This document shows positions 24,552-41,036 of a stretch of DNA of 64,000 nucleotides, piece after piece. The notes under the pieces are model-generated. The model saw only the letters and a program-made list of their open reading frames with translations, did no database searches and had not been told where the DNA came from. The stretch covers positions 24,801 to 88,800 of the forward strand of contig NZ_QVEX01000020.1 of the NCBI RefSeq assembly GCF_003434055.1, in the 5' to 3' direction. The stretch's first letter is position 1, and each line of letters starts with the position of its first letter. The position numbers and the translations under genes were made by a program. This stretch comes from Enterocloster aldenensis. Its GTDB lineage: Bacteria > Bacillota > Clostridia > Lachnospirales > Lachnospiraceae.

Positions 24552-24801
24552 GCAGCTATCTCCTTTGCGCTCTTGTTCTGCTCTCATATGGATATTCTAT
24601 TATATTTTTGCGGGAACGGTAGGACATCCGGAGAGCCTGGATTGGTATTTTAACCTGTTTTGCCCCGGAATATGCCTGGGACACGGGTCCTGGAATTAGC
24701 CCAATACATGGACATACGGATAAGACCGTGCTGTAATCCATTCCCAGGACAGGGGTTTAAATACAAAAATATTTCCCCTATTTGTCTCAAATATGCTAAA
24801 A

Positions 24802-30678: not shown

Positions 30679-33111
30679 TTAATGAAAATGTCCGCCCATC
30701 CACCCGGCCAGCATATCGTATAACAGATCAGGATCAATGGGCTTTGCCAGATGCCCGTTCATCCCAGCCTCGCCGGCCCTCACCACGTCCTCGTGGAACG
30801 CATCGGCCGTCATGGCTATGATGGGAATGCTGCGGGCCATTTCATGGTCCGAGCCGCGGATGGCCTGGGTTGCTTCATAACCGTCCATCACCGGCATCTG
30901 TACATCCATCAGGATCAGGTCAAAGGAATCGCCGTGGGACAGGAACCGCTCCACTGCCTCCCTGCCATTGACCGCGCATTCCACCGTGATATCAGCCATG
31001 TGCAGCAGTTCCACCGCGATTTCCCGGTTAAGCCCATTGTCTTCCACCAGCAGCACGTGATGCCCTGCCAGGCCGGCCCGCCGTGCCGTTCCTCCCGGCG
31101 GCCGCACGGCCCGTTCGATTCCGGTCACGGAAAGCAGCGTATCATAAAGGGTGGAGGCAAAAATAGGCTTGGTGATGAATGCGTTGGCCCCCGCCTGCCT
31201 GGCGCTGTTCTCAACAGCGCCCCAGTCATAAGCCGTTATGATGATGATCATGGTCTCCGGGCCAACAATTTCCCTTATCCGGCGGGTCACCTGGACCCCA
31301 TCCATATCCGGCATCCTCAGATCAATGAGACAGACATCATAATCCCCGCCTGACCGGTGGGCCAGACGGACGCGGTTTATGCACTCCCTGCCGGTCAGGA
31401 CCCAGTCCGACCGGATTCCCAGATTTTCCAGCAATAGGGCTGTATGGACACAGCTGTCCCTGTCATCATCCGTCACCAGCACCTTCAGGGATTCCATCAC
31501 ATACTGTTTGGCAGACGTCTGGCTCCCCTTATCCTTTGGAAGGTCAAAATCCAGTTCCACGGCAAAGGACGTTCCTTTTCCCAGTTCACTCTGCAGCGTT
31601 ATGGTACCGCCCATCAATGTAACAAGATTTTTGGTGATGGGCATACCCAGGCCGGTGCCTCCTGGGTTCTCACCCATAGACATGTCTTCCTGCTCAAATG
31701 GGACAAAAAGGCGTTCCATGAATGCGCTGCCCATCCCTATTCCTGTATCGCTTACCGTAAAACGCAGCCGGATCCTGCCGTCCTTTTTCTGCAGCTGCCT
31801 GATTTCCATACGGATACTGCCCCCTGCCGGGGTAAACTTAAGCGCATTGGATAAAAGGTTGAGAAGGACCTGGTTCAGCCGCAGTGAGTCGCCTATCAGT
31901 TCCGTATCCGTAAGCCCTGCCAGCGGCACGGTAAAGTCCAGGCCCTTTTCCCTGGCCTGGGGATAGATGATGGAGGAAACAGACTCCACCACTGTCTCCA
32001 GCTTAAACTGCTCATGGGCAATCTTCATCTTTCCCTCGGAAATCTTGGACATATCCAGAACATCATTAATAAGGGTCATCAGGTGCTTGGATGAATACCC
32101 TATTTTCTCCAGACAGTCAGCCACACGCTGTTTGTCGTCAATATAAGCAGCCGCAATGGTGGTCATGCCGATAATCGCATTCATCGGCGTGCGGATTTCG
32201 TGGCTCATGCGTGACAGGAAATCTGATTTGGCCCGGTTGGCATGTTCCGCCACGGTAAGGGCATCCTTAAGGGCCGCTGCCTGTTCCGTCAGTTTTTTCT
32301 GTATTTCCCTTAATTCGGTCACATCTGTTATATCGATGAAGATAGCCAGGTACACAGGGCTTTTCTCCTGCCAGTCAATACAGGCCGCGTTCACCTGAAG
32401 CCACAGCCCCTGCCCTTTCCTGTCCCTGACATGCATGACAAAGCGTACCGGCTTCCCGCTCATCAGTTCCTTCCTGTGGGACCGGATGGTTTCCATATTG
32501 TCCTTTATGTTCTGTTCCTGCAGGGCATGCAGCTCCCCGTTTGTCCTGTCCCCGAAATACTCCATAAACCGGGCATTGGCATCCAAAAGGACCATGCCCA
32601 GATCCCAGTCAATCCTGTACTTTGCCACAAAACCAGGAAGGTTTTCATAGGTAACGGACCGCTCCCTCTGCATCTGCACCAGGTCATCAATATTCGTGAG
32701 CACGGAATATGCCACCTGGTATCCGTCTATGTATTCATCCGAAAACCTGGTGGAAAACTGGACCCAGATATATCCGCCGTCTTTCCGCCTGAGACGCGAA
32801 ACCATCTGATATCCGGCCTGGTGTGCCTCAACCGCTTTTATGACGGTCTGGGTAAGGTCATCCCACAGTTCCTGGTCGTCCTTATAATAAAGGTCCGGCT
32901 GGTTATGGAACCTTGCTTCGTATTCACCTTTCGGCCAGCCAATCAGCTCATAGTAAAATTCATTGGCCCAGACCAGTGTAAAATGCTCATCCAGCAAATG
33001 CTTGCTTACACTGACCCTCATCAGATTCATCAGTGTGTCATATTCATAACCGGCCGGCATGCCGCTGGCCTGGTCCTGGCCGGACCTGCTTTTCTTTTCC
33101 TGTTCAACCAT
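30679..33111 (-). CDS. Hybrid histidine kinase with two PAS and two receiver domains
   Basis: A soluble sensor kinase of about 810 residues with no membrane helix. Order: PAS 1 (FTLVWANEFYYELIGWP), PAS 2 with PAC (ITDVTELREIQKKL), HisKA (FLSRMSHEIRTPMNAIIG, with phospho-His), and HATPase (NLLSNALKFTPAGG, DTGIGMG, GTGLGMPITKNL). Receiver 1 follows (VTDDDRD, CLIDLRMPDMDG), then receiver 2 (LLVEDNGLNREIA, ILMDVQMPVMDG, GHLAKPID). No Hpt or output domain is present, so phosphate must pass to another protein. The ATG at 33111 has GGGGGAA 8 nt upstream; longer in-frame starts at 33174 and 33141 are possible. It is divergent from a twin-GntR regulator. Confidence 0.92.
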   Translation of the reverse strand: MVEQEKKSRSGQDQASGMPAGYEYDTLMNLMRVSVSKHLLDEHFTLVWANEFYYELIGWPKGEYEARFHNQPDLYYKDDQELWDDLTQTVIKAVEAHQAGYQMVSRLRRKDGGYIWVQFSTRFSDEYIDGYQVAYSVLTNIDDLVQMQRERSVTYENLPGFVAKYRIDWDLGMVLLDANARFMEYFGDRTNGELHALQEQNIKDNMETIRSHRKELMSGKPVRFVMHVRDRKGQGLWLQVNAACIDWQEKSPVYLAIFIDITDVTELREIQKKLTEQAAALKDALTVAEHANRAKSDFLSRMSHEIRTPMNAIIGMTTIAAAYIDDKQRVADCLEKIGYSSKHLMTLINDVLDMSKISEGKMKIAHEQFKLETVVESVSSIIYPQAREKGLDFTVPLAGLTDTELIGDSLRLNQVLLNLLSNALKFTPAGGSIRMEIRQLQKKDGRIRLRFTVSDTGIGMGSAFMERLFVPFEQEDMSMGENPGGTGLGMPITKNLVTLMGGTITLQSELGKGTSFAVELDFDLPKDKGSQTSAKQYVMESLKVLVTDDDRDSCVHTALLLENLGIRSDWVLTGRECINRVRLAHRSGGDYDVCLIDLRMPDMDGVQVTRRIREIVGPETMIIIITAYDWGAVENSARQAGANAFITKPIFASTLYDTLLSVTGIERAVRPPGGTARRAGLAGHHVLLVEDNGLNREIAVELLHMADITVECAVNGREAVERFLSHGDSFDLILMDVQMPVMDGYEATQAIRGSDHEMARSIPIIAMTADAFHEDVVRAGEAGMNGHLAKPIDPDLLYDMLAGWMGGHFH

Positions 33112-33318
33112 ACTGTCGGTTCCCCCTGGTCCTATTCCCATTGCCCTTCCTGCTTCCCGATGATTCCGCGGCATAAGGCACCTTGTTCATGTGCGTGTCT
33201 TTCTATTATAATTCAAGTACAAAGAAAATTCAACAGACTTCTGGAAATGACCTCCATAAAATGATAAAATAGACTGCATGACATAAGAAATCATTTTACT
33301 ATACGAGGTATTGAACTG

Positions 33319-34791
33319 TTGAAAACAAAGTTAAGGGTCCACAACCTGATTTACCAGTACTTTCTGCTGCGCATGCATTTCCAGTATTATCAATATGGCG
33401 ATACCCTGCCTTCCATCGACACCCTCTGCCGTGAATTCAGTGTTTCCGCCCAGACCGTGACCACTGCACTGCAGCGGCTGCGTGAAGAAGGCTACATCGA
33501 CATGCACAACGGGAGACAGACAAAGGTCCTGTTCAGACAGACCGGGGAAGAATATGAGGCTTTTATCCGAGGGTTCTTCTCCGAGCGGCTGGACGCCTCC
33601 TCTGATTTAACCAGGACCACGCAGATGATCTGCCTCCCTCTGATGACCGAAGGATTCATGCGTATGGACCATAGGGACCTGGCATACATTGCCCCCTTTG
33701 CCAAACGGTCCGGCGCCGACGATGTCCTCTACCTGTTCTGTTATGCCCTGCAGAAGCTGGACAACCCCCTGGCCATGAACCTGTTCTGGGAAACCTCCCT
33801 GTTTCTTGGACTGATGTTTGTCAGTGAAAACAAGGAGCCTTCCATGAGGAAAGCCCTGGACATCCAGGGACAGCTGGAAAACATCATATCCCTGTGCAGG
33901 GCAGGGAACCGGGAACAGCTTCATGAAGCGCTTCTCCATTTCCTAAGGGATTCCGTGGAAAAGGCATTCCAATCCATCCGGCGTTCCCTGGACCCGTTCA
34001 CGCAAGCCGGACCGGTTCCTTTTGTCTGGCGTATTTACTGGGAAAGGCCCCAGATCTGTTACGGGCTGACCATGCGGATCCTCCACGGCATATACCTGGG
34101 GGAATACAGGGACATGGAATATCTTCCTTCATATGAAAAGATGTCCAGGAAATATAATGTGTCCGTGAGCACGGTCCGCCGGGCCATCCATATCCTGAAC
34201 CAGACAGGGGCTGCGGTTTCTGTAAATGGCGTGGGGACCCGTATCTTCCCTGCAGGTACGCCCTGCGGCCTTCCCGATTTCCAAAGCCCTGCCATACGCC
34301 GCAACCTGTCCCTTTTTCTGCAGTCCTTTGAAATCATAGCTTTTTCCTGTGAGGAAGCGGTCTGTTCCACCCTTTTGTCGCTTACCCCGGAACAATACTC
34401 ACGGTTAATCCGTGAAATTGAAACATACCGGGAATCAGGCTGCCATGACTTTACCTTATGGCATCTGCTGATCTGCGTTGCTGTCCACAGTCCCCTGTCC
34501 GGTGTACGGGAAATCTATTCCAGGCTGTACGGCCTCTTTCTCTGGGGGTACCCGCTGAAGGCGTCGCTTCCGGACGCTTCCCGGCTGGACCGCACCATCA
34601 GGCAGTTTTCAGAAACCATACTTCTCTGCCTGCAGGATAATAAGCCGGAACAATGCGGCGCTGCCGTGAGGGAAATGATTACCGGGCAGTTCCCTGCCGC
34701 GGAAAGATATCTGCTGTCACACGGGATCACCACTGAGGAGCTGCGCATGTCGCCCTCCATCCGGCTTCTTTTAAACACCCCAATCGGATAA
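33319..34791 (+). CDS. Regulator with two GntR-type winged-helix domains
   Basis: A 490-residue protein. A GntR winged helix at about 1-75 (YGDTLPSIDTLCREFSVSAQ then TVTTALQRLREEGYIDM) is followed by a helical region. A second GntR winged helix lies at about 255-320 (LPSYEKMSRKYNVSVSTVRR then AIHILNQTGAAVSVNGVGT), and a second helical region ends the protein. Usual GntR proteins have one such domain. The start is TTG with GAGGT about 9 nt upstream. A same-size paralogue lies at 58.9-60.3 kb. Here the gene is divergent from a hybrid histidine kinase. Effector and targets are unknown. Confidence 0.85.
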   Translation: MKTKLRVHNLIYQYFLLRMHFQYYQYGDTLPSIDTLCREFSVSAQTVTTALQRLREEGYIDMHNGRQTKVLFRQTGEEYEAFIRGFFSERLDASSDLTRTTQMICLPLMTEGFMRMDHRDLAYIAPFAKRSGADDVLYLFCYALQKLDNPLAMNLFWETSLFLGLMFVSENKEPSMRKALDIQGQLENIISLCRAGNREQLHEALLHFLRDSVEKAFQSIRRSLDPFTQAGPVPFVWRIYWERPQICYGLTMRILHGIYLGEYRDMEYLPSYEKMSRKYNVSVSTVRRAIHILNQTGAAVSVNGVGTRIFPAGTPCGLPDFQSPAIRRNLSLFLQSFEIIAFSCEEAVCSTLLSLTPEQYSRLIREIETYRESGCHDFTLWHLLICVAVHSPLSGVREIYSRLYGLFLWGYPLKASLPDASRLDRTIRQFSETILLCLQDNKPEQCGAAVREMITGQFPAAERYLLSHGITTEELRMSPSIRLLLNTPIG

Positions 34792-34872: not shown

Positions 34873-35967
34873 TCATATGTATTTTTCCTTGTGTTTCCCC
34901 AGCTCTGCCAGACGCCGGTTCTTCTCATTTACCGGACCGAAATCCTCAATACAGCAGATGACCCGCTCACAGGATGCAAGAAGGGCTGCCGCCCGCTCAT
35001 AGGTCCTGTCCTTAATCAGTTCAAACGGTGCTTCCGACACCACCTCCGCGGCCAGGGCCCTGGCAACCGGATAATCAATGTCATTCTCATGAAGGATACC
35101 GGCTGCAAAGGGAATCCCCCTGCGCTGGAGTTTCCGGTAAACCGGTATTCCGCTTCCATTCCCGCCTATGACAAAGACCTCCGGCTTTCCCTTTACCGGC
35201 TCCATCTCAAGACAGCCAAGTTCTGCATGGTAGCTTCCTTTTGAGATTCCATACAGCTGCGTGATATAGGAGGATGTGAAAATCTCTTCCGGCGTCCCCA
35301 AGCGTTCAATGGTGTCCCCATTGACGCATACAATATAGTCCGACAGCTTCTGGGCCAGGTCCAGTTCATGAAGGGACATGAGTACCGCCACCTGTTTTTC
35401 CCGCACCAGATCTTTTAGGATGGTCAGAAGCTCCAGTTTATGCCGTATATCTAAAAAGGAAGTGGGCTCATCCAGCACAATGGCCTCCGGCTCCTGGCAG
35501 ATGGCCCGCGCAAGGAGGATCCGCTGCTTCTGCCCATCGCTTATCTCCATGAAGTCCCGCCCCCCAAGGTCCCCTGCATGGACCAGTTCCATGGCCTCCC
35601 TTACCTTTTCACGGTCCTCCCGGCCCAGGATTCCCAGACGTCCCGTGTAAGGGTAGCGCCCTGTAGCAACCACATCCTCACAGGTCATGAGTTCGGGGCG
35701 TATCCGTTCCGTCATCAGCACTGACATCCGCCTGGCTATCTGTTTTTCCGTCATATCCTTCATGGAGGCACGGTCCAGATACACAGCGCCCCCCAGCAGG
35801 TCAATCTGCCGGATGATGCTTTTCAGTATGGTGGATTTCCCGGCTCCATTGGGTCCAATCAAGGTCACGATCTGGCCGCGCTTTACATGGATTTCAATCT
35901 GGGCAATCAGCGGCATCTTCCCATATCCCACTGTCATGTTTTCCGTAAAAATATAATCCTCTGCCAT
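34873..35967 (-). CDS. FecE/BtuD-type ABC ATPase with C-terminal extension
   Basis: A 364-residue ATPase. The ABC domain (about 1-245) has Walker A LIGPNGAGKSTILKS, signature EISDGQKQRILLARAI (SDGQ replaces SGGQ) and Walker B AIVLDEPTSFLDIRH. Residues about 260-364 form an extra domain (PEVFVIGGNGSGIPVYRKLQ, GILHENDIDYPVARALAAEV) with a nucleotide-binding-like glycine loop; its role is unknown to me. AAGGAGG lies 8 nt before the ATG at 35967. It is the last gene of the B12-riboswitch operon and powers the FecCD-type permease next door for a corrinoid, haem or siderophore-like cargo. Confidence 0.92.
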   Translation of the reverse strand: MAEDYIFTENMTVGYGKMPLIAQIEIHVKRGQIVTLIGPNGAGKSTILKSIIRQIDLLGGAVYLDRASMKDMTEKQIARRMSVLMTERIRPELMTCEDVVATGRYPYTGRLGILGREDREKVREAMELVHAGDLGGRDFMEISDGQKQRILLARAICQEPEAIVLDEPTSFLDIRHKLELLTILKDLVREKQVAVLMSLHELDLAQKLSDYIVCVNGDTIERLGTPEEIFTSSYITQLYGISKGSYHAELGCLEMEPVKGKPEVFVIGGNGSGIPVYRKLQRRGIPFAAGILHENDIDYPVARALAAEVVSEAPFELIKDRTYERAAALLASCERVICCIEDFGPVNEKNRRLAELGKHKEKYI

Positions 35968-35980
35968 GGTTCCTGCCTCC

Positions 35981-37000
35981 TTAGGATGCGCCATTTTTAT
36001 TGCGCACCATCATGTAAATCACAACCGGCGCACCGAAAACAGCGGTGACCGAACTGATGCTAAGCTCAGTGGGCGCAAACACGGTCCTGGCAATCAGGTC
36101 GCAGAACAGGCAGGACACGGCGCCGCCCATAAAACAGCCTGGAATGACCAGGAGCGGCCTGGCCGTGCCCAACATACGTTTCACAATATGGGGCACCGCA
36201 ATGCCCACAAAGGAAATAGGCCCGGCAAAAGCAGTGACGCAGGCGGACAATATGCTGGACAGCAGGATCAGCGCCACGCGGAACCGCAGGATGTTCACGC
36301 CCATGTTCTGGGCGTACACCTCCCCCATCTGATATGCGCCAATCGGTTTTGCCATCCAGAACACCAGGAGGAGCGACACCGCAGTCACGGCCGCCATCAC
36401 CCGGACATTGTCCCAGGACATCCCTGAAAAGCTTCCCATGGACCAGTTGTGGAGATTAACGATATTGGCCTCATCTGCAAATGTAATGATAAAATCAGTC
36501 ACCGCAGAGCAGATATAACTTATCATCACGCCGCAGATGACCAGCATGGACATTTTCTTCACCCGCCCCGAAATCAGGAGGACGAACCCCATGGATATCA
36601 TGGCGCCTGCAAATGCCGCCAGTATCATGCCCCCGGAACTGATGGATATCCCCCTGCCAAGCAAAAGGATCATGACCAGGGATACCACCAGCTTGGCGCC
36701 GGAAGAAATCCCCAGCACAAACGGACCTGCAATGGGGTTTGCAAAAAAAGCCTGCAGCAAAAAGCCTGACACGGACAGCGCCCCTCCCAGTATGACGGCT
36801 GACAGGATGCGGGGAAGGCGGATATCCCACACAATATGGTACGCGGTTCCCTCACCGGTCTGCTTAAGCAGGATCTTTCCTATCTCCCCCGCGGACAGAC
36901 GGACGCTGCCAAAATTAATATTCCAGAAAAACAGCAGGCACATCATGGCTCCCAGAAGCCCGAATGAAATGCAGTACTGCGTGTATGTTCTTTTAGACAT
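35981..37000 (-). CDS. FecCD/BtuC-type ABC permease
   Basis: A 339-residue protein with about nine to ten membrane helices of the FecCD family: DIRLPRILSAVILGGALSVSG, NPIAGPFVLGISSGAKL, and FAGPISFVGIAVPHIVKRML near the C-terminus are diagnostic. This family imports cobalamin, haem or siderophores. AAGGAG lies 8 nt upstream. It follows the binding-protein gene by 12 bp and precedes the ATPase by 13 bp, giving one tight operon. Confidence 0.94.
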   Translation of the reverse strand: MSKRTYTQYCISFGLLGAMMCLLFFWNINFGSVRLSAGEIGKILLKQTGEGTAYHIVWDIRLPRILSAVILGGALSVSGFLLQAFFANPIAGPFVLGISSGAKLVVSLVMILLLGRGISISSGGMILAAFAGAMISMGFVLLISGRVKKMSMLVICGVMISYICSAVTDFIITFADEANIVNLHNWSMGSFSGMSWDNVRVMAAVTAVSLLLVFWMAKPIGAYQMGEVYAQNMGVNILRFRVALILLSSILSACVTAFAGPISFVGIAVPHIVKRMLGTARPLLVIPGCFMGGAVSCLFCDLIARTVFAPTELSISSVTAVFGAPVVIYMMVRNKNGAS

Positions 37001-37012
37001 TGGGACAACTCC

Positions 37013-38272
37013 TTACCGCAGCCGGTACATGTAGGCCATTTCCTCCTGGTCCGGCGCTTCCTCTGTGAGGATCCGGTGGATATCCAGTATCATATCGCCC
37101 AGGCCCATGGTTTCCTGAAACATGCTTTTCTCCGTGCACCACACATTTCCCTGTTTCACAGCCTTAAAGTCAGCCAGGACGCTGCTTTTGTCCAACAGCT
37201 GGTCAAGGGACTCCAGTCCCCCGTCAATGGTGCTGTTATAAATCAAATAATCCGCTTCCTTTGCCGCTGCGTAAAACGATTCCATCTGCATGTTCATGGT
37301 GGACAGCCCATTGCCGTTCCCGTCCAGGTCTCCCGGAACATAGGTCCCGCCGGCCAGTTCAATCATTTTAGCCACATAATCCCCGGACTTCCTCACATTC
37401 ACATATCCGTTGGAAGTGATGTAGAAAAATGCCACTGTCTTTCCCGTGCCATCCTGGTCCAGCACAGGCCTCAGGTTCTCCATCTGTTTCTCAAAGCAGG
37501 CCTCTGCCTGCTCCTCCCTGCCGGTAAGGACCCCATACAGCTTCAGCCACTCCATCCTTCCAAGGGGGTGGCTTTCATAGCTGGAACGCTCCACCAGCAC
37601 GGGTATGCCCAGCTGTTCCAGCTGTTCCTTTACTTCCGGGGAATGGCTGATCATGGTTGACTCGATTGCCAGGTCACATGCTTTTGACAAGATCAGCTCA
37701 TAATCAGGGGCATTGTATTTGCCGGCATAGTACATATCCCCATCTTCCAGGGCCTGCCTTGCTTCCTCAATATACCAGCCCCTGGCGTCCGTGCCGGACA
37801 GGGTAATCTGGTCCATGGCGCCCAGGCTTTTAAACAGGTCCATGGCCGAGGTCGCAACCAGGTAGATGTCCTTAAGGGGACGCCGGATAACCGTCACATC
37901 CTCCGGCAGGCCTTCCGGCTGCTCTGCCTGCTCAGGAACCACCAGGAAACGGCCGCTGTCCCTGATGGTAATCATGGCGCATCCATCATCATAATAATCC
38001 ACGGCAAACTGGTCTGCGTACAGAAGTTCCATGGTGCGTATGACTTCCCGATTCTCCCAGGAATCCTGGGAGGGCTGCTCCTTTGCCGGCTGCGGCCGGG
38101 CTGCCTGCGGCTGCCCTGGCCGGGGCTTATCCGGCTGCTGCCGGACCGTCTGCTCCTTTGCCTGCCGTGGCTGCCCTCCTGTTTCCCTGCCCGGCGCAGC
38201 GCACCCGCCGGCAGCCGCCATCAGAAGGCAGATCATCATAATTGTGGTTAATATTTTTCCTGTTCTCATCAT
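37013..38272 (-). CDS. ABC transporter substrate-binding lipoprotein (FecB/BtuF fold)
   Basis: A 419-residue exported lipoprotein. The signal peptide ends in a lipobox (MAAAGGCAAPG), followed by a Pro/Gln/Lys-rich linker (about 30-70) and a periplasmic-binding fold of the class with a long backbone helix (PEDVTVIRRPLKDIYLVATS, LAIESTMISHSPEVKEQLEQLG, YYAGKYNAPDYELILSKACD). It captures the cargo of the FecCD-type importer. Its start overlaps the preceding lipoprotein gene's stop by four bases (ATGA). B12-riboswitch control suggests a corrinoid or related tetrapyrrole. Confidence 0.92.
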   Translation of the reverse strand: MMRTGKILTTIMMICLLMAAAGGCAAPGRETGGQPRQAKEQTVRQQPDKPRPGQPQAARPQPAKEQPSQDSWENREVIRTMELLYADQFAVDYYDDGCAMITIRDSGRFLVVPEQAEQPEGLPEDVTVIRRPLKDIYLVATSAMDLFKSLGAMDQITLSGTDARGWYIEEARQALEDGDMYYAGKYNAPDYELILSKACDLAIESTMISHSPEVKEQLEQLGIPVLVERSSYESHPLGRMEWLKLYGVLTGREEQAEACFEKQMENLRPVLDQDGTGKTVAFFYITSNGYVNVRKSGDYVAKMIELAGGTYVPGDLDGNGNGLSTMNMQMESFYAAAKEADYLIYNSTIDGGLESLDQLLDKSSVLADFKAVKQGNVWCTEKSMFQETMGLGDMILDIHRILTEEAPDQEEMAYMYRLR

Positions 38273-39189
38273 TGGACCTTTACGATGGTGGCTGAATCAA
38301 ATATCAGCCCATACTCAATCTCATGCGGCTCACTCATAGCGACCGTATCCGCAATAACCGGCATGTTCCTGTCAAATACAGCCACCGGGATCTCAAACGC
38401 AGAATTGCCCTCTGTGCTTATAAGGTCGAACTTCTCACCGTCCACCTTCATATAATCGTAATTGGCGCTGCCCCAGATAATGGTTGCAAAGACTTTTCCG
38501 TCTTCCACCCGCAGGGATGCAGGGGATTCTACGCTGGCCCGTCCCGAACCGCCTGTCAGGACAACCTTGGCCGTATACATTCCGTTTTCCAGGTTCAGGC
38601 TTCCTGCTGTTGTGACATTTTCCTCAGATAAGCAATCCGGCGGTATGGAATCAGAACAGAACACCAGGACGCGGTCATACCATTTTTCTTTCTTTTTACT
38701 GAATGCGCTGCAGTCAATTTCCATATCCAGGGCTTTGACAGGAACTTTAAAAGTATGCGCGCCCCCTGCCGTCTCCACATATGGGATATAATCCGCTTCA
38801 GAAGCCTTCAGGGCCGCCTCTCCGGTTCCCATATACAGCTTCAGATACCCGGTGCCGCCCATGGTCATGACCGCGCTCATGGCGCCGTCCTTTACCGTAA
38901 GTCGGCAGGCGGTTATCTGGAACATGCTGGAGCTGGAGTCCACTTTAATCGGGTATACCCCGTCTTTTATTTGATCGGCGTATATAGGCGTCCGCTTTTT
39001 GGCTTCCCGGTCCGGGTTTCCGGAGATGGCTTTTGCTGTATCTGGGCGGGTTCCGGCTGCCTGTGCTCCGGTTCCGGCTTCCTCTGCCTGCACTCCGGCT
39101 CCGGCATCCTGCGTTCCGCCGGCGCATCCCCCGGCCAGAAGCATCATGGCAATCATGACTGCAGATAATCCTGCTTTTTGAAATTTCAT
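38269..39189 (-). CDS. Lipoprotein with two NEAT-like repeats
   Basis: A 306-residue exported lipoprotein (lipobox LLAGGCAGG) with a low-complexity Ala/Gly/Glu/Thr linker, then two related beta-rich domains. Domain 1 (about 75-185) has DGVYPIKVDSSSSMFQITAC, LTVKDGAMSAVMTM and GYLKLYMG. Domain 2 (about 195-300) repeats NGMYTAKVVLTGGSGRASVE, LRVEDGKVFATIIW and YDYMKVDG. The pattern resembles NEAT / iron-transport-associated domains that bind haem, but the assignment is by eye. The ATG at 39189 has GGTGG 7 nt upstream. It sits between cbiK and the binding protein, so it may pass a tetrapyrrole between them. Confidence 0.75.
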   Translation of the reverse strand: MKFQKAGLSAVMIAMMLLAGGCAGGTQDAGAGVQAEEAGTGAQAAGTRPDTAKAISGNPDREAKKRTPIYADQIKDGVYPIKVDSSSSMFQITACRLTVKDGAMSAVMTMGGTGYLKLYMGTGEAALKASEADYIPYVETAGGAHTFKVPVKALDMEIDCSAFSKKKEKWYDRVLVFCSDSIPPDCLSEENVTTAGSLNLENGMYTAKVVLTGGSGRASVESPASLRVEDGKVFATIIWGSANYDYMKVDGEKFDLISTEGNSAFEIPVAVFDRNMPVIADTVAMSEPHEIEYGLIFDSATIVKVQ

Positions 39190-39258
39190 ATTCATTCCAC
39201 CTTTAAAAGGGCGATCAGCAACATAACCCCGACCGCCCATTCTTCCTGTTTAACCTGA

Positions 39259-40323
39259 TTACTTTGACAGACTGTCCACTGCAGCCTGTGCGTGTTCCAC
39301 AAAAAGCTGCTGGATGGCTTCCATCTCCCCAAGGCCGCGTACAAGGCATGTTACCTCATAACCAGCGCCCTCAAATGCAGTTTTCCATGAATCTTCCTCA
39401 TCCCCTGCCATATCGTTGTTGGCATGGTCGCCTGCCACTATCATTAACGGCTCCAGGACCACCTTCTTATAGCTGCCTTCCTTAACCTTGGCAAGGACAT
39501 CCTCCAGGCTTGGCTCTGCCTCAACTGTTCCTACATAATAATTCTTATATCCTGCATCTGCCAGCATATCCTGCATCTTTGCGTATACATGGTTGGAATC
39601 CGCCTCTGTACCGTGTCCCATAAAGCAGATAGCTGTTTCCCCGTCATCATACCCCACAGTTGCCTCTGTAATAGCCTTCATGACAGCATTGAAATCATCA
39701 TCCGTGGTCAGAAGCGGCTTACCGATTGCCACTTTCTCAAAGGCATCTGAATACTCCGCCACTTCATTTACAAGGTCCGTGTATTCCAGTCCGTCCATTA
39801 AATGGGTCGGCTGAATGACCAGGTTCCTGACGCCATTCTTCTCCGCGCGTTCAAGGGCCTGGCCAACATTGTCAATTGCAACATTGTCCCGTGACTTCAC
39901 ATGGTCAATGATGATCTGGCTGGTAAATCCTCTTCTGACCGAGTAATCCGGGAATGCCTTTTCCATTGCATCCTCAATGGCCCCTACGGTCAGGCGCCTG
40001 TTGTCATTGTAGCTGGTGCCGAAGCTGACTACAAGAAGCTCATCCTCACCAATCCCGTCCTGGTTCCTGGTGTTATCCTTGGAAGCGTCTCCTGTATCAT
40101 AGTTCTCTTCATCCTCTGCTGCCATACTGTCTGCTGTCTCCTCTTCACTGGATTCTTCTGCGGCGGTTCCTGCTGCCATGGATTCTGCAGTGGTCCCTGT
40201 TTCCGTCCCTGTCCCTGCACCGGCCGCCACGGCCTCTGTTTCCTTTCCGCCTGTACACCCTGTCGCGGCTGCTGCTGTAAGGGCTGCTGCTGTTAATAAT
40301 ACTGCCAGTTTCCTGATTTTCAT
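39259..40323 (-). CDS. cbiK: Exported CbiK-type sirohydrochlorin cobaltochelatase lipoprotein
   Basis: A 354-residue protein. The signal peptide and lipobox (LTAAAATGCTGG) are followed by an acidic, low-complexity linker of about 65 residues and a full class II chelatase domain (about 95-350). Key residues visible: ELLVVSFGTSYNDNRRL, His in IQPTHLMDGLEY, His in CFMGHGTEADSNH, and EPLMIVAGDHANNDMAG. CbiK inserts cobalt into sirohydrochlorin, normally in the cytoplasm; exported CbiK is known from Desulfovibrio. AGGAGG lies 8 nt before the ATG. It is the first gene after a B12 riboswitch and leads an importer operon, so a role in handling external tetrapyrroles is likely. Confidence 0.9.
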   Translation of the reverse strand: MKIRKLAVLLTAAALTAAAATGCTGGKETEAVAAGAGTGTETGTTAESMAAGTAAEESSEEETADSMAAEDEENYDTGDASKDNTRNQDGIGEDELLVVSFGTSYNDNRRLTVGAIEDAMEKAFPDYSVRRGFTSQIIIDHVKSRDNVAIDNVGQALERAEKNGVRNLVIQPTHLMDGLEYTDLVNEVAEYSDAFEKVAIGKPLLTTDDDFNAVMKAITEATVGYDDGETAICFMGHGTEADSNHVYAKMQDMLADAGYKNYYVGTVEAEPSLEDVLAKVKEGSYKKVVLEPLMIVAGDHANNDMAGDEEDSWKTAFEGAGYEVTCLVRGLGEMEAIQQLFVEHAQAAVDSLSK

Positions 40324-40482
40324 CTTCTCTTCCTCCTTATTTTAAAACCATATCGGTTCCGGTGCCATCTTAAAACAATGCCCCCATGATGAGACGTCAG
40401 GAGCACGTCCTTTGACGGCAGTCCGGCAAGGTATCAGGAATACGCCAGAAACAGCTGAAGATTTCCCCAGTACGGCAGACAT

Positions 40483-40509
40483 AAAAAAACACAGGGGAGA
40501 TTCCCTGTG
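40483..40509 (-). terminator. Riboswitch-controlled terminator before cbiK
   Basis: On the minus strand CACAGGG pairs with CCCTGTG, followed by seven T's. A second CACAGGG at 40526-40532 could pair with the same arm, and GGGACC (40530-40535) with GGTCCC (40553-40558), so alternative antiterminator structures are available. Confidence 0.75.
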
Positions 40510-40739
40510 CATCTGATTCCATCCTCACAGGGACCCGCATGCCCTGCAGAACGGTCCCTGGGCTGTAAATACATATAACAACACCCTGAAGCAGTTTTCC
40601 GCAAAAGCAGTTATTCACCGTCTGAGTCAGAAATCTGCGGTCACAAACATGCCTGAAGGTTGCATTTCCCCCTATATGCCAATCGCTGGGGAAAGGCTGC
40701 CCAGGCGCGCTTTAAACGCCGTAAACCGGTACGACCAAT

Positions 40740-40950
40740 TACTCGTGGTCTGGAACCATATTCCTGTACCAACAACTGGCAGGTTTCCTGACTTGCCGCT
40801 CAACACCCATAACCGCCTTCCCAACCCGGACCGGATCAGTGGCTGTACATGACAATGGTTATGCGCTCCCGGCTTACAGTGACGAGATCGTACAGGATTC
40901 GCACCTGTTTCCCTATTATCCGGCGCCTGAAGGATCAGACATGTCCCCAT
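40740..40950 (-). ncRNA. Cobalamin (B12) riboswitch
   Basis: On the minus strand this holds the conserved cobalamin aptamer parts in order: GGGAAACAGGTGCGAATCC, then a GATCTCGTCACTGTAAGCC block, and the B12 box AGTCAGGAAACCTGCC (40778-40793). The aptamer ends about 230 nt before a terminator hairpin and 420 nt before cbiK. It should shut off the cbiK-lipoprotein-ABC operon when adenosylcobalamin is plentiful. The exact ends are estimates. Confidence 0.93.
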
Positions 40951-41036
40951 GACAGATCCGCAGACGCCGGCACCAGCTGTTCTAAACTCGATATGCTATA
41001 TCCTACCATCGATTGGCAGAAAAAGCAACTCTGTTC

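Follow-up and report, generated by a model that had tools for sequence, protein, structure and literature searches.

In this study we analyzed a stretch of 64,000 nucleotides from Enterocloster aldenensis (Lachnospiraceae; RefSeq assembly GCF_003434055.1, contig NZ_QVEX01000020.1, forward-strand positions 24,801 to 88,800), hereafter called the window. On its minus strand, behind a cobalamin (B12) riboswitch, lies an operon for a CbiK-type chelatase with export signals, a lipoprotein with two NEAT-like domains, a substrate-binding lipoprotein, a permease and an ATP-binding cassette (ABC) ATPase. On balance we favor the view that this operon serves the B12-repressed uptake of cobalt and tetrapyrrole ring together, as cobalt-sirohydrochlorin (cobalt-factor II), which is the first dedicated intermediate of anaerobic B12 synthesis. 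The operon is a real and conserved unit, with its riboswitch, its export signals and the catalytic histidines of its chelatase; in most of the genomes with relatives the chelatase is the only CbiK, and in many of them the genes upstream in ring synthesis are missing.

In the mechanism that we propose, scarcity of B12 would let transcription pass the terminator behind the riboswitch. The membrane-anchored NEAT-like lipoprotein would capture sirohydrochlorin or oxidised precorrin-2 outside the cell, and the lipid-anchored CbiK would insert Co2+ into the captured ring there. The BtuF-like binding protein would then pass the loaded ring to the permease and the ATPase for entry into the cytoplasm; CbiL and the remaining Cbi enzymes would complete the vitamin there. 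For a host that has no HemC, uroporphyrinogen-III methyltransferase or precorrin-2 dehydrogenase, the operon would be the sole source of the ring; for a ring-making host, as the window's nearest relatives seem to be, it would supplement the cell's own supply with salvaged ring and cobalt. We infer the substrate, the direction of the reaction, the transfer from protein to protein and the cargo of the importer from the genes and their context.

Results

The chelatase is predicted to be exported

The window chelatase is composed of a signal peptide, a TGC lipobox, a low-complexity linker and a core that begins at about residue 95. Its score against the CbiK equivalog model NF047852 (NCBIfam) is 242.7 bits, below the cut-off of 400, and we class it as a CbiK family member by domain, not as an equivalog. 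The best solved relative is FetB (9b86, E 1.7e-46), followed by CbiK (1qgo, E 1.3e-45); the chelatase also matches 2xvx (E 2e-34), which we take to be the exported Desulfovibrio vulgaris form, periplasmic CbiK (CbiKP). His237 and His300 of the window protein align with His145 and His207 of CbiK and are invariant in 81 of 81 aligned rows, the window included. The catalytic roles of the two CbiK histidines are described in PMC7689651 (papers cited here by PMC number are represented by parts of their text).

By a script rule, a signal peptide and lipobox are predicted in 69 of 80 relatives. When the 11 loci that failed the rule were read by hand, L016 and L031 had a lipobox, L028, L035, L044 and L050 had a hydrophobic signal without the cysteine, L029 and L069 started later, L046 and L052 were cut by contig ends, and L064 had no signal. 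Because the export signals and the invariant histidines are kept, the chelatase is exported by prediction and looks catalytically intact. The sequence-only reading, an earlier interpretation of the window made without database searches, had placed the enzyme outside the cytoplasm, and the export predicted among the relatives agrees with that placement.

In 11 exported CbiK rows (L128, L130, L134, L137-L143 and L145) the chelatase match extends over about 820 bases as against 760, suggesting an insertion.

The operon and its riboswitch are conserved

A scan of genomes for relatives of the chelatase gave at least 592 candidates, from which 80 loci were kept. They come mostly from Lachnospiraceae, Oscillospiraceae, Ruminococcus and further Clostridia, with many metagenome bins among them. 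The riboswitch, terminator, exported CbiK, NEAT-like lipoprotein, binding lipoprotein, FecCD permease and ATPase with an extra domain named in the sequence-only reading were all confirmed in the window, and the search for this gene order among relatives, which that reading had suggested, found the five genes in the same order on one strand in 63 of the 80 loci. Among the 17 loci without the full set, 12 stop less than 1 kb from the end of a contig, and the other five truly depart: L030 and L034 have no permease or ATPase nearby, L042 has no NEAT-like protein, L044 has no binding protein, and L064 is a lone chelatase with no operon.

The riboswitch precedes the chelatase gene in 34 of the 36 cases checked (16 of 17 loci and 23 of 24 genomes, five loci being common to both sets); the exceptions are L023 in the locus set and G024 in the genome set. 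Per-genome riboswitch counts are lower bounds, most genomes having been scored only in part. A DASS transporter was considered as a conserved neighbour and had no match in any of the 80 loci, so it is not part of the system.

Most hosts complete the corrin ring and many apparently do not make its precursor

Twenty-four genomes carrying chelatase relatives were examined genome-wide. CbiD is present in all 24 and CobS in 23, which indicates that the hosts synthesize the corrin ring or bring it to completion. In 13 of them the chelatase has CbiD or CobS no more than 20 kb away, and the importer ATPase is fused with CbiD in one frame at L012:5720-7567, L059:11944-13854 and L061:12011-13915. In an R. 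flavefaciens bin (L089), a cluster encodes CbiL, D, F, G, H, J, ET, A, CobT, U, S, C, CbiB, CobD, CobQ and CbiC and then the operon with its riboswitch; no second chelatase was found among the 19 annotated products of this cluster.

A single CbiK-family protein is found in 21 of the 24 genomes and is the exported one in 20 of these; in G024 (locus L064) the lone copy has no visible signal. No separate CbiX was found in the 24 genomes, since all 26 CbiX matches fall at the places of CbiK. CbiM, a component of the usual cobalt importer, exceeds its cut-off in four genomes, strongly in G010 and G013, both of which have extra CbiK copies, and weakly in G016 and G022.

Uroporphyrinogen-III methyltransferase is above its cut-off in 10 of the 24 genomes, and a Met8-type precorrin-2 dehydrogenase scores above 50 bits in the same 10. 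Most genomes also have weak dehydrogenase matches (about 20-33 bits) that pass the low cut-off; where the frame was some 460 residues long, the match was taken as another Rossmann protein, without being checked singly. HemC is present in eight of the 10 genomes with methyltransferase and in none of the other 14. All three are therefore absent together in 14 genomes, every one of which has CbiD, so these genomes apparently do not synthesize sirohydrochlorin. Because three separate losses coincide in the same 14 genomes, mere incompleteness of bins is unlikely; four of the 14 are cultured strains (three of R. flavefaciens and Evtepia gabavorous).

Of the 56 loci remaining after the first 24, 50 entered a further search for the methyltransferase, which was above the cut-off in 12 of these 50 genomes. 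In both sets together, it is absent in 49 of 69 CbiF-positive genomes, CbiF being read from matches of 120-168 bits to the methyltransferase model, one of which (L089:2947-3690) was confirmed as CbiF. Three genomes without a match, and two with methyltransferase but no match in the CbiF range, were left out of the 69. In many hosts, then, the ring must come from outside, and cobalt probably along with it. The exported chelatase together with the importer would be the obvious route for such a ring.

The surface binder and the importer

Against the Pfam NEAT model the NEAT-like lipoprotein scores 17.1 bits, below the cut-off of 32.8, and it is filed as NEAT-like only. PF05031 stands in the precomputed annotation of many among its 120 listed relatives, and a fold test found the NEAT fold in it, with the two-NEAT architecture at a looser fit. 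Several of the solved NEAT domains that it matches hold haem; the profile alignments to solved NEAT chains stop short of the strand that carries the haem-ligating tyrosine motif. The lipoprotein is presumably a surface tetrapyrrole binder.

The domains of a BtuFCD corrinoid importer, those of binding protein, FecCD permease and ABC ATPase, are all present (PF01497, PF01032 and PF00005). The best NCBIfam model is BtuC for the permease (210.7 bits, below the cut-off of 334) and the corrinoid ATPase NF007082 for the ATPase (198.4 bits, below the cut-off of 537), the latter aligning through residue 354. The predicted structure of the ATPase has a predicted local distance difference test (pLDDT) score of 92.2, and its C-terminal part consists of alternating strands and helices. 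In a fold search with the whole ATPase the matches listed were ABC domains, the closest of which include BhuUV, HmuUV and BtuCD.

The C-terminal domain (window 34873-35229) begins with a conserved glycine-rich strand-helix segment, is Rossmann-like by prediction and gave no convincing family match. In 13 of the 64 relatives measured, the ATPase is too short to contain it. The domain looked Met8-like by eye and was considered as a hidden precorrin-2 dehydrogenase; this idea was dropped, as neither Pfam nor the profile search of solved structures supported it, and the sole match below 0.001 in the latter was a designed repeat protein.

Export, ring synthesis and the window's own lineage

Some of the observations gathered in this section weigh against the joint uptake of ring and cobalt as the function of the operon. 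The activity of CbiK outside the cell and the cargo of the importer are both conjectures from genomic context, and many of the genomes are metagenome bins. Three of the 24 (G004, G010 and G013) hold further CbiK copies, of cytoplasmic length or shorter. It speaks for this function that in most of the 24 no recognized cytoplasmic cobalt-inserting enzyme was found, in a search that did not extend to HemH and CobN. A cobalt importer as the explanation for the absent cytoplasmic CbiK was rejected, CbiM being strong in just two of the 24; the other cobalt importers NiCoT, CorA and Feo lay outside the scope of this search.

The relation between export and ring auxotrophy is equivocal. In an even draw of 196 genomes from one order, 61 had a match in the CbiF range. 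CbiK matches with E <1e-20 were read in these CbiF-positive genomes at 65 places, 63 of which were fetched, and before the count hand calls overrode the script for L118 (exported) and for L112 and L115 (cytoplasmic). The methyltransferase was absent in 6 of 13 genomes with only exported CbiK and in 8 of 48 others (one-sided Fisher p 0.035). When genomes with any exported copy were compared with the rest, the figures were 7 of 18 and 7 of 43 (p 0.060); eight CbiF-positive genomes without a CbiK match were counted among the 48 and the 43. Between genomes with only exported and only cytoplasmic CbiK they were 6 of 13 and 7 of 35 (p 0.077), so seven genomes with only cytoplasmic CbiK also have no methyltransferase. 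The contrast between 49 of 69 and 7 of 35 pits a set drawn by similarity against a different set and is no proof.

On the chelatase tree, all but four of the 97 exported rows, 93 in number, fall into a single group (support 83, not starred). Export changes four times on this tree. The methyltransferase label changes 24 times; 16 of these changes were counted within exported rows alone and five within cytoplasmic rows. Since export changes so rarely, just two to four independent pairs are available, and the association is inseparable from descent. We therefore do not hold that export is statistically tied to ring auxotrophy; the draw is suggestive and confounded by descent. Export seems to have arisen only a few times, and losses of ring synthesis inside the exported group seem to have been frequent. 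The pattern fits a machine that permits the loss of ring synthesis and is no proof of it.

At L118 (G207), L094 (G211) and L100 (G078), CbiK is exported but stands apart from the main group of exported copies. No NEAT-like match was found in the stretch examined around these three, which adjoin more distant permease and ATPase genes, and all three genomes are without methyltransferase. The five genomes of a cytoplasmic CbiK subgroup (L103, L110, L119, L120 and L123) are also all without it, which may reflect either a different solution or an unrecognized methyltransferase.

The window's own lineage is a further point of difficulty. The chelatases nearest to that of the window on the tree are those of L001, L002, L006 and L003, all with methyltransferase; the genome of the fifth nearest, L007, is without it. 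Because the four nearest relatives keep the methyltransferase, the presence of the operon in this lineage is not accounted for by ring auxotrophy. Salvage, the role that the sequence-only reading gave to the operon, is supported for relatives and is doubtful as its reason in the window's own host. L001 to L003 encode HemC, Met8 and one CbiK each, without CbiM. Met8-type genes adjoin HemC and methyltransferase genes in all four relatives examined for this (L157 to L160). In L158, which belongs to L002's genome, the ring genes stand beside a sulphite/nitrite-reductase-type gene (PF01077, PF03460), so that they, the dehydrogenase included, may serve siroheme.

In ring-making hosts the operon may be either a backup or the outer half of a cobalt-fetching cycle that uses the host's own ring. 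In such a cycle, ring-makers would secrete sirohydrochlorin or precorrin-2 as a metallophore specific for cobalt (a cobaltophore), surface CbiK would load it with cobalt and the importer would retrieve it as cobalt-sirohydrochlorin; lineages that later lost ring synthesis would have turned this machinery to pirating the cobaltophore of others. We consider this cycle quite improbable; if it is true, cobalt acquisition and the first committed step of B12 synthesis would be one extracellular cycle.

HemC and uroporphyrinogen-III methyltransferase share one frame at L159:11188-13569 (794 residues) and L160:2310-4706 (799 residues).

Discussion

The sequence-only reading held that a surface chelatase loads or unloads cobalt in scavenged tetrapyrroles before their import, in a corrinoid or sirohydrochlorin salvage route. 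For the window's relatives, a surface chelatase that acts on scavenged tetrapyrroles before import has good genomic support: 14 of the 24 genomes are without the ring genes, 20 have only the exported CbiK, and a separate CbiX was found in none of them. The most plausible direction is the loading of cobalt into a sirohydrochlorin-type ring; unloading received no support. CbiK acts before the corrin ring exists, so corrinoids are doubtful as a substrate of the chelatase.

The iht genes of Porphyromonas gingivalis are a close Gram-negative precedent. We take their transporter cassette to be of the BtuF/FecCD type, and FetB of 9b86 to be IhtB of this bacterium. According to its title, another study reportedly describes a functional corrin pathway in P. 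gingivalis. In ihtABCDE, the gene ihtA, which encodes a BtuB homologue, is preceded by a coenzyme B12 riboswitch, and IhtB is an outer-membrane chelatase that removes iron from hemin (PMC3764172). IhtB has been called CbiK-like (PMC6460266), and P. gingivalis is without the steps to precorrin-2 (PMC6461909). The iht genes thus resemble the operon in their upstream B12 riboswitch, exported chelatase and ABC transporter cassette (PMC3764172). They differ in that a TonB-linked receptor, the BtuB homologue, stands where the Clostridia have the NEAT-like lipoprotein; in the window operon the chelatase is gene 1, followed by the NEAT-like lipoprotein, and no TonB-linked outer-membrane receptor occupies the first place. 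The iht riboswitch and chelatase and the missing precorrin-2 steps, a combination drawn here and in none of the cited text, suggest that the same logic may operate in a second phylum, with the TonB receptor replacing the NEAT-like protein. The available text of PMC3764172 files the function of iht under haem and not under ring salvage for B12. A review credits FetB with making manganese protoporphyrin (PMC13402209), which gives some support for chelatase action at the bacterial surface.

Other known systems share parts of the arrangement. The Isd/Hbp NEAT haemophores have the NEAT fold in common with the lipoprotein, whereas here the sequence is below the Pfam cut-off and the operon stands behind a B12 riboswitch. 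CbiKP of D. vulgaris, a member of the same family, is periplasmic and haem-binding, and its genome has a second, cytoplasmic CbiK; it differs from the present case since the exported form is the sole CbiK in 20 of our 24 genomes. Salmonella CbiK (1qgo), whose His145 and His207 are conserved in the window chelatase, is cytoplasmic and belongs to a genome that makes its own ring, whereas its window relative carries export signals. Salmonella also has CbiMNQO (PMC7689651).

Tetrapyrrole precursor salvagers, as defined by Shelton et al. 2019, have a complete corrin pathway with the upstream steps missing and are mainly Firmicutes; dependence on 5-aminolevulinic acid was tested (PMC6461909). The precorrin-2 salvager class amounts to 0.6% (PMC8123684). 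For the genes searched, our 14 genomes resemble such salvagers in having the corrin pathway and no upstream ring synthesis. In its available text, PMC6461909 proposes neither an importer nor external cobalt insertion for them. A survey of 2009 listed 13 B12-synthesising species without a recognized cobalt transporter (PMC2667541). The nearest hint in print concerns a rumen bin, in which a sirohydrochlorin cobaltochelatase was called an enzyme for transporting sirohydrochlorin and joining it to cobalt, with BtuFCD in the same bin; no exported chelatase is proposed in the available text (PMC12654859). In a partial listing of the open-licence literature, we found neither a Gram-positive operon with an exported CbiK nor extracellular cobalt insertion for B12. 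The suggestion that the route is undescribed in Gram-positives survives within that scope and is tempered by the P. gingivalis precedent.

Among the alternatives to uptake of the cobalt-loaded ring, ordinary uptake of corrinoids (B12, cobamides or cobinamide) deserves attention, although we regard it as unlikely. The chelatase homologue and the NEAT-like protein would then be accessory surface binders of corrinoids or cobalt, and an unrecognized enzyme would insert cobalt in the cytoplasm. The upstream B12 riboswitch is consistent with this idea, as are the BtuC and corrinoid ATPase models, both below cut-off, that best match the permease and the ATPase; B12 importers are found among the FecCD importers. 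However, invariance of the catalytic histidines in 81 of 81 rows is unexpected for mere binding. The idea also leaves 20 of 24 corrin makers without a recognized internal CbiK or CbiX, and 14 of 24 without a recognized source of the ring.

It is rather less plausible that the operon handles haem or other metalloporphyrins, with the surface chelatase removing or swapping the metal of haem, as proposed for IhtB/FetB of P. gingivalis, and the importer taking up haem or porphyrin. The best solved relative of the chelatase is the haem-binding FetB, with its credited insertion of manganese into protoporphyrin (PMC13402209); several solved NEAT domains hold haem, and the haem importers BhuUV and HmuUV are among the closest ABC folds. 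These points must be set against the B12 riboswitch in 34 of 36 cases, the proximity of corrin genes (within 20 kb) in 13 of 24 genomes and the ATPase-CbiD fusions. Moreover, disruption of a cobalt chelatase in Bacteroides fragilis left the use of haem iron unaffected (unpublished data in PMC6460266).

For ring-making hosts, we would give little credence to the idea that the Met8-type dehydrogenase also inserts cobalt in the cytoplasm and that the exported set is a salvage backup. Dehydrogenase-chelatase bifunctionality is established for CysG and Met8, and Met8-type genes stand with HemC and methyltransferase in L157 to L160. Yet the L158 cluster lies beside the reductase-type gene, so a role in siroheme is possible there, and the idea is inapplicable to the 14 genomes without the dehydrogenase. 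Least probable by far is a dual location, in which an internal start would yield a second, cytoplasmic CbiK for ordinary cobalt insertion: the window linker has two in-frame ATG codons, but neither has a ribosome-site-like 4-mer 5-14 bases upstream. Nor is such a start conserved across the 80 loci: an ATG in frame lies within the 70 residues that precede the core in 27 of them, and one with a ribosome-like site in 14 (GTG and TTG were not scanned).

That some B12 makers do not synthesize the ring is a prediction of several years' standing; the available text of the accounts names neither an importer nor a site at which cobalt enters. The operon offers a concrete candidate for each and occurs frequently in Clostridia of the gut and the rumen. 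If uptake of the cobalt-loaded ring is its function, gut B12 would depend on the exchange of an early ring intermediate, and a textbook cytoplasmic step would move to the cell surface. It would also provide an answer for B12 makers without a recognized cobalt importer, and the haem operon iht of P. gingivalis would possibly be a B12-precursor operon. Automatic pathway scoring that treats any cbiK as cytoplasmic would call such bacteria producers for the wrong reason.

Features of the window

The coordinates of the operon are given in Table 1. The terminator-like hairpin is presumably the expression platform of the riboswitch, by which switching would be effected.

Table 1. Elements of the operon, in window positions.
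Element	Position	Strand	Details
Cobalamin riboswitch aptamer (RF00174)	40776..40976	-	cmscan 97.3 bits, gathering score 31.5, E 4.8e-23
Intrinsic terminator-like hairpin, between aptamer and first gene	40489..40510	-	8 pairs, T run
Exported CbiK-type chelatase lipoprotein, 354 residues	39259..40323	-	PF06180 287.8 bits, cut-off 26.2
Lipoprotein with two NEAT-like domains	38269..39195	-	308 residues (ATG 39195) or 306 residues (ATG 39189)
BtuF/FecB-type substrate-binding lipoprotein, Pro/Gln-rich linker	37013..38272	-	PF01497 97.6 bits, residues 139-382
FecCD-family permease, BtuC-like	35981..37000	-	PF01032 268.5 bits
ABC ATPase, BtuD-like, 373 residues	34873..35994	-	PF00005; extra Rossmann-like domain, residues ~256-373

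Two neighbouring frames were read by eye. A frame of 490 residues at window 33319-34791 on the plus strand, convergent with the operon, appears to have two GntR-like helix-turn-helix segments. The other, of 831 residues at window 30679-33174 on the minus strand, resembles a hybrid sensor kinase in its PAS-like part, its kinase part and its two receiver-like parts.

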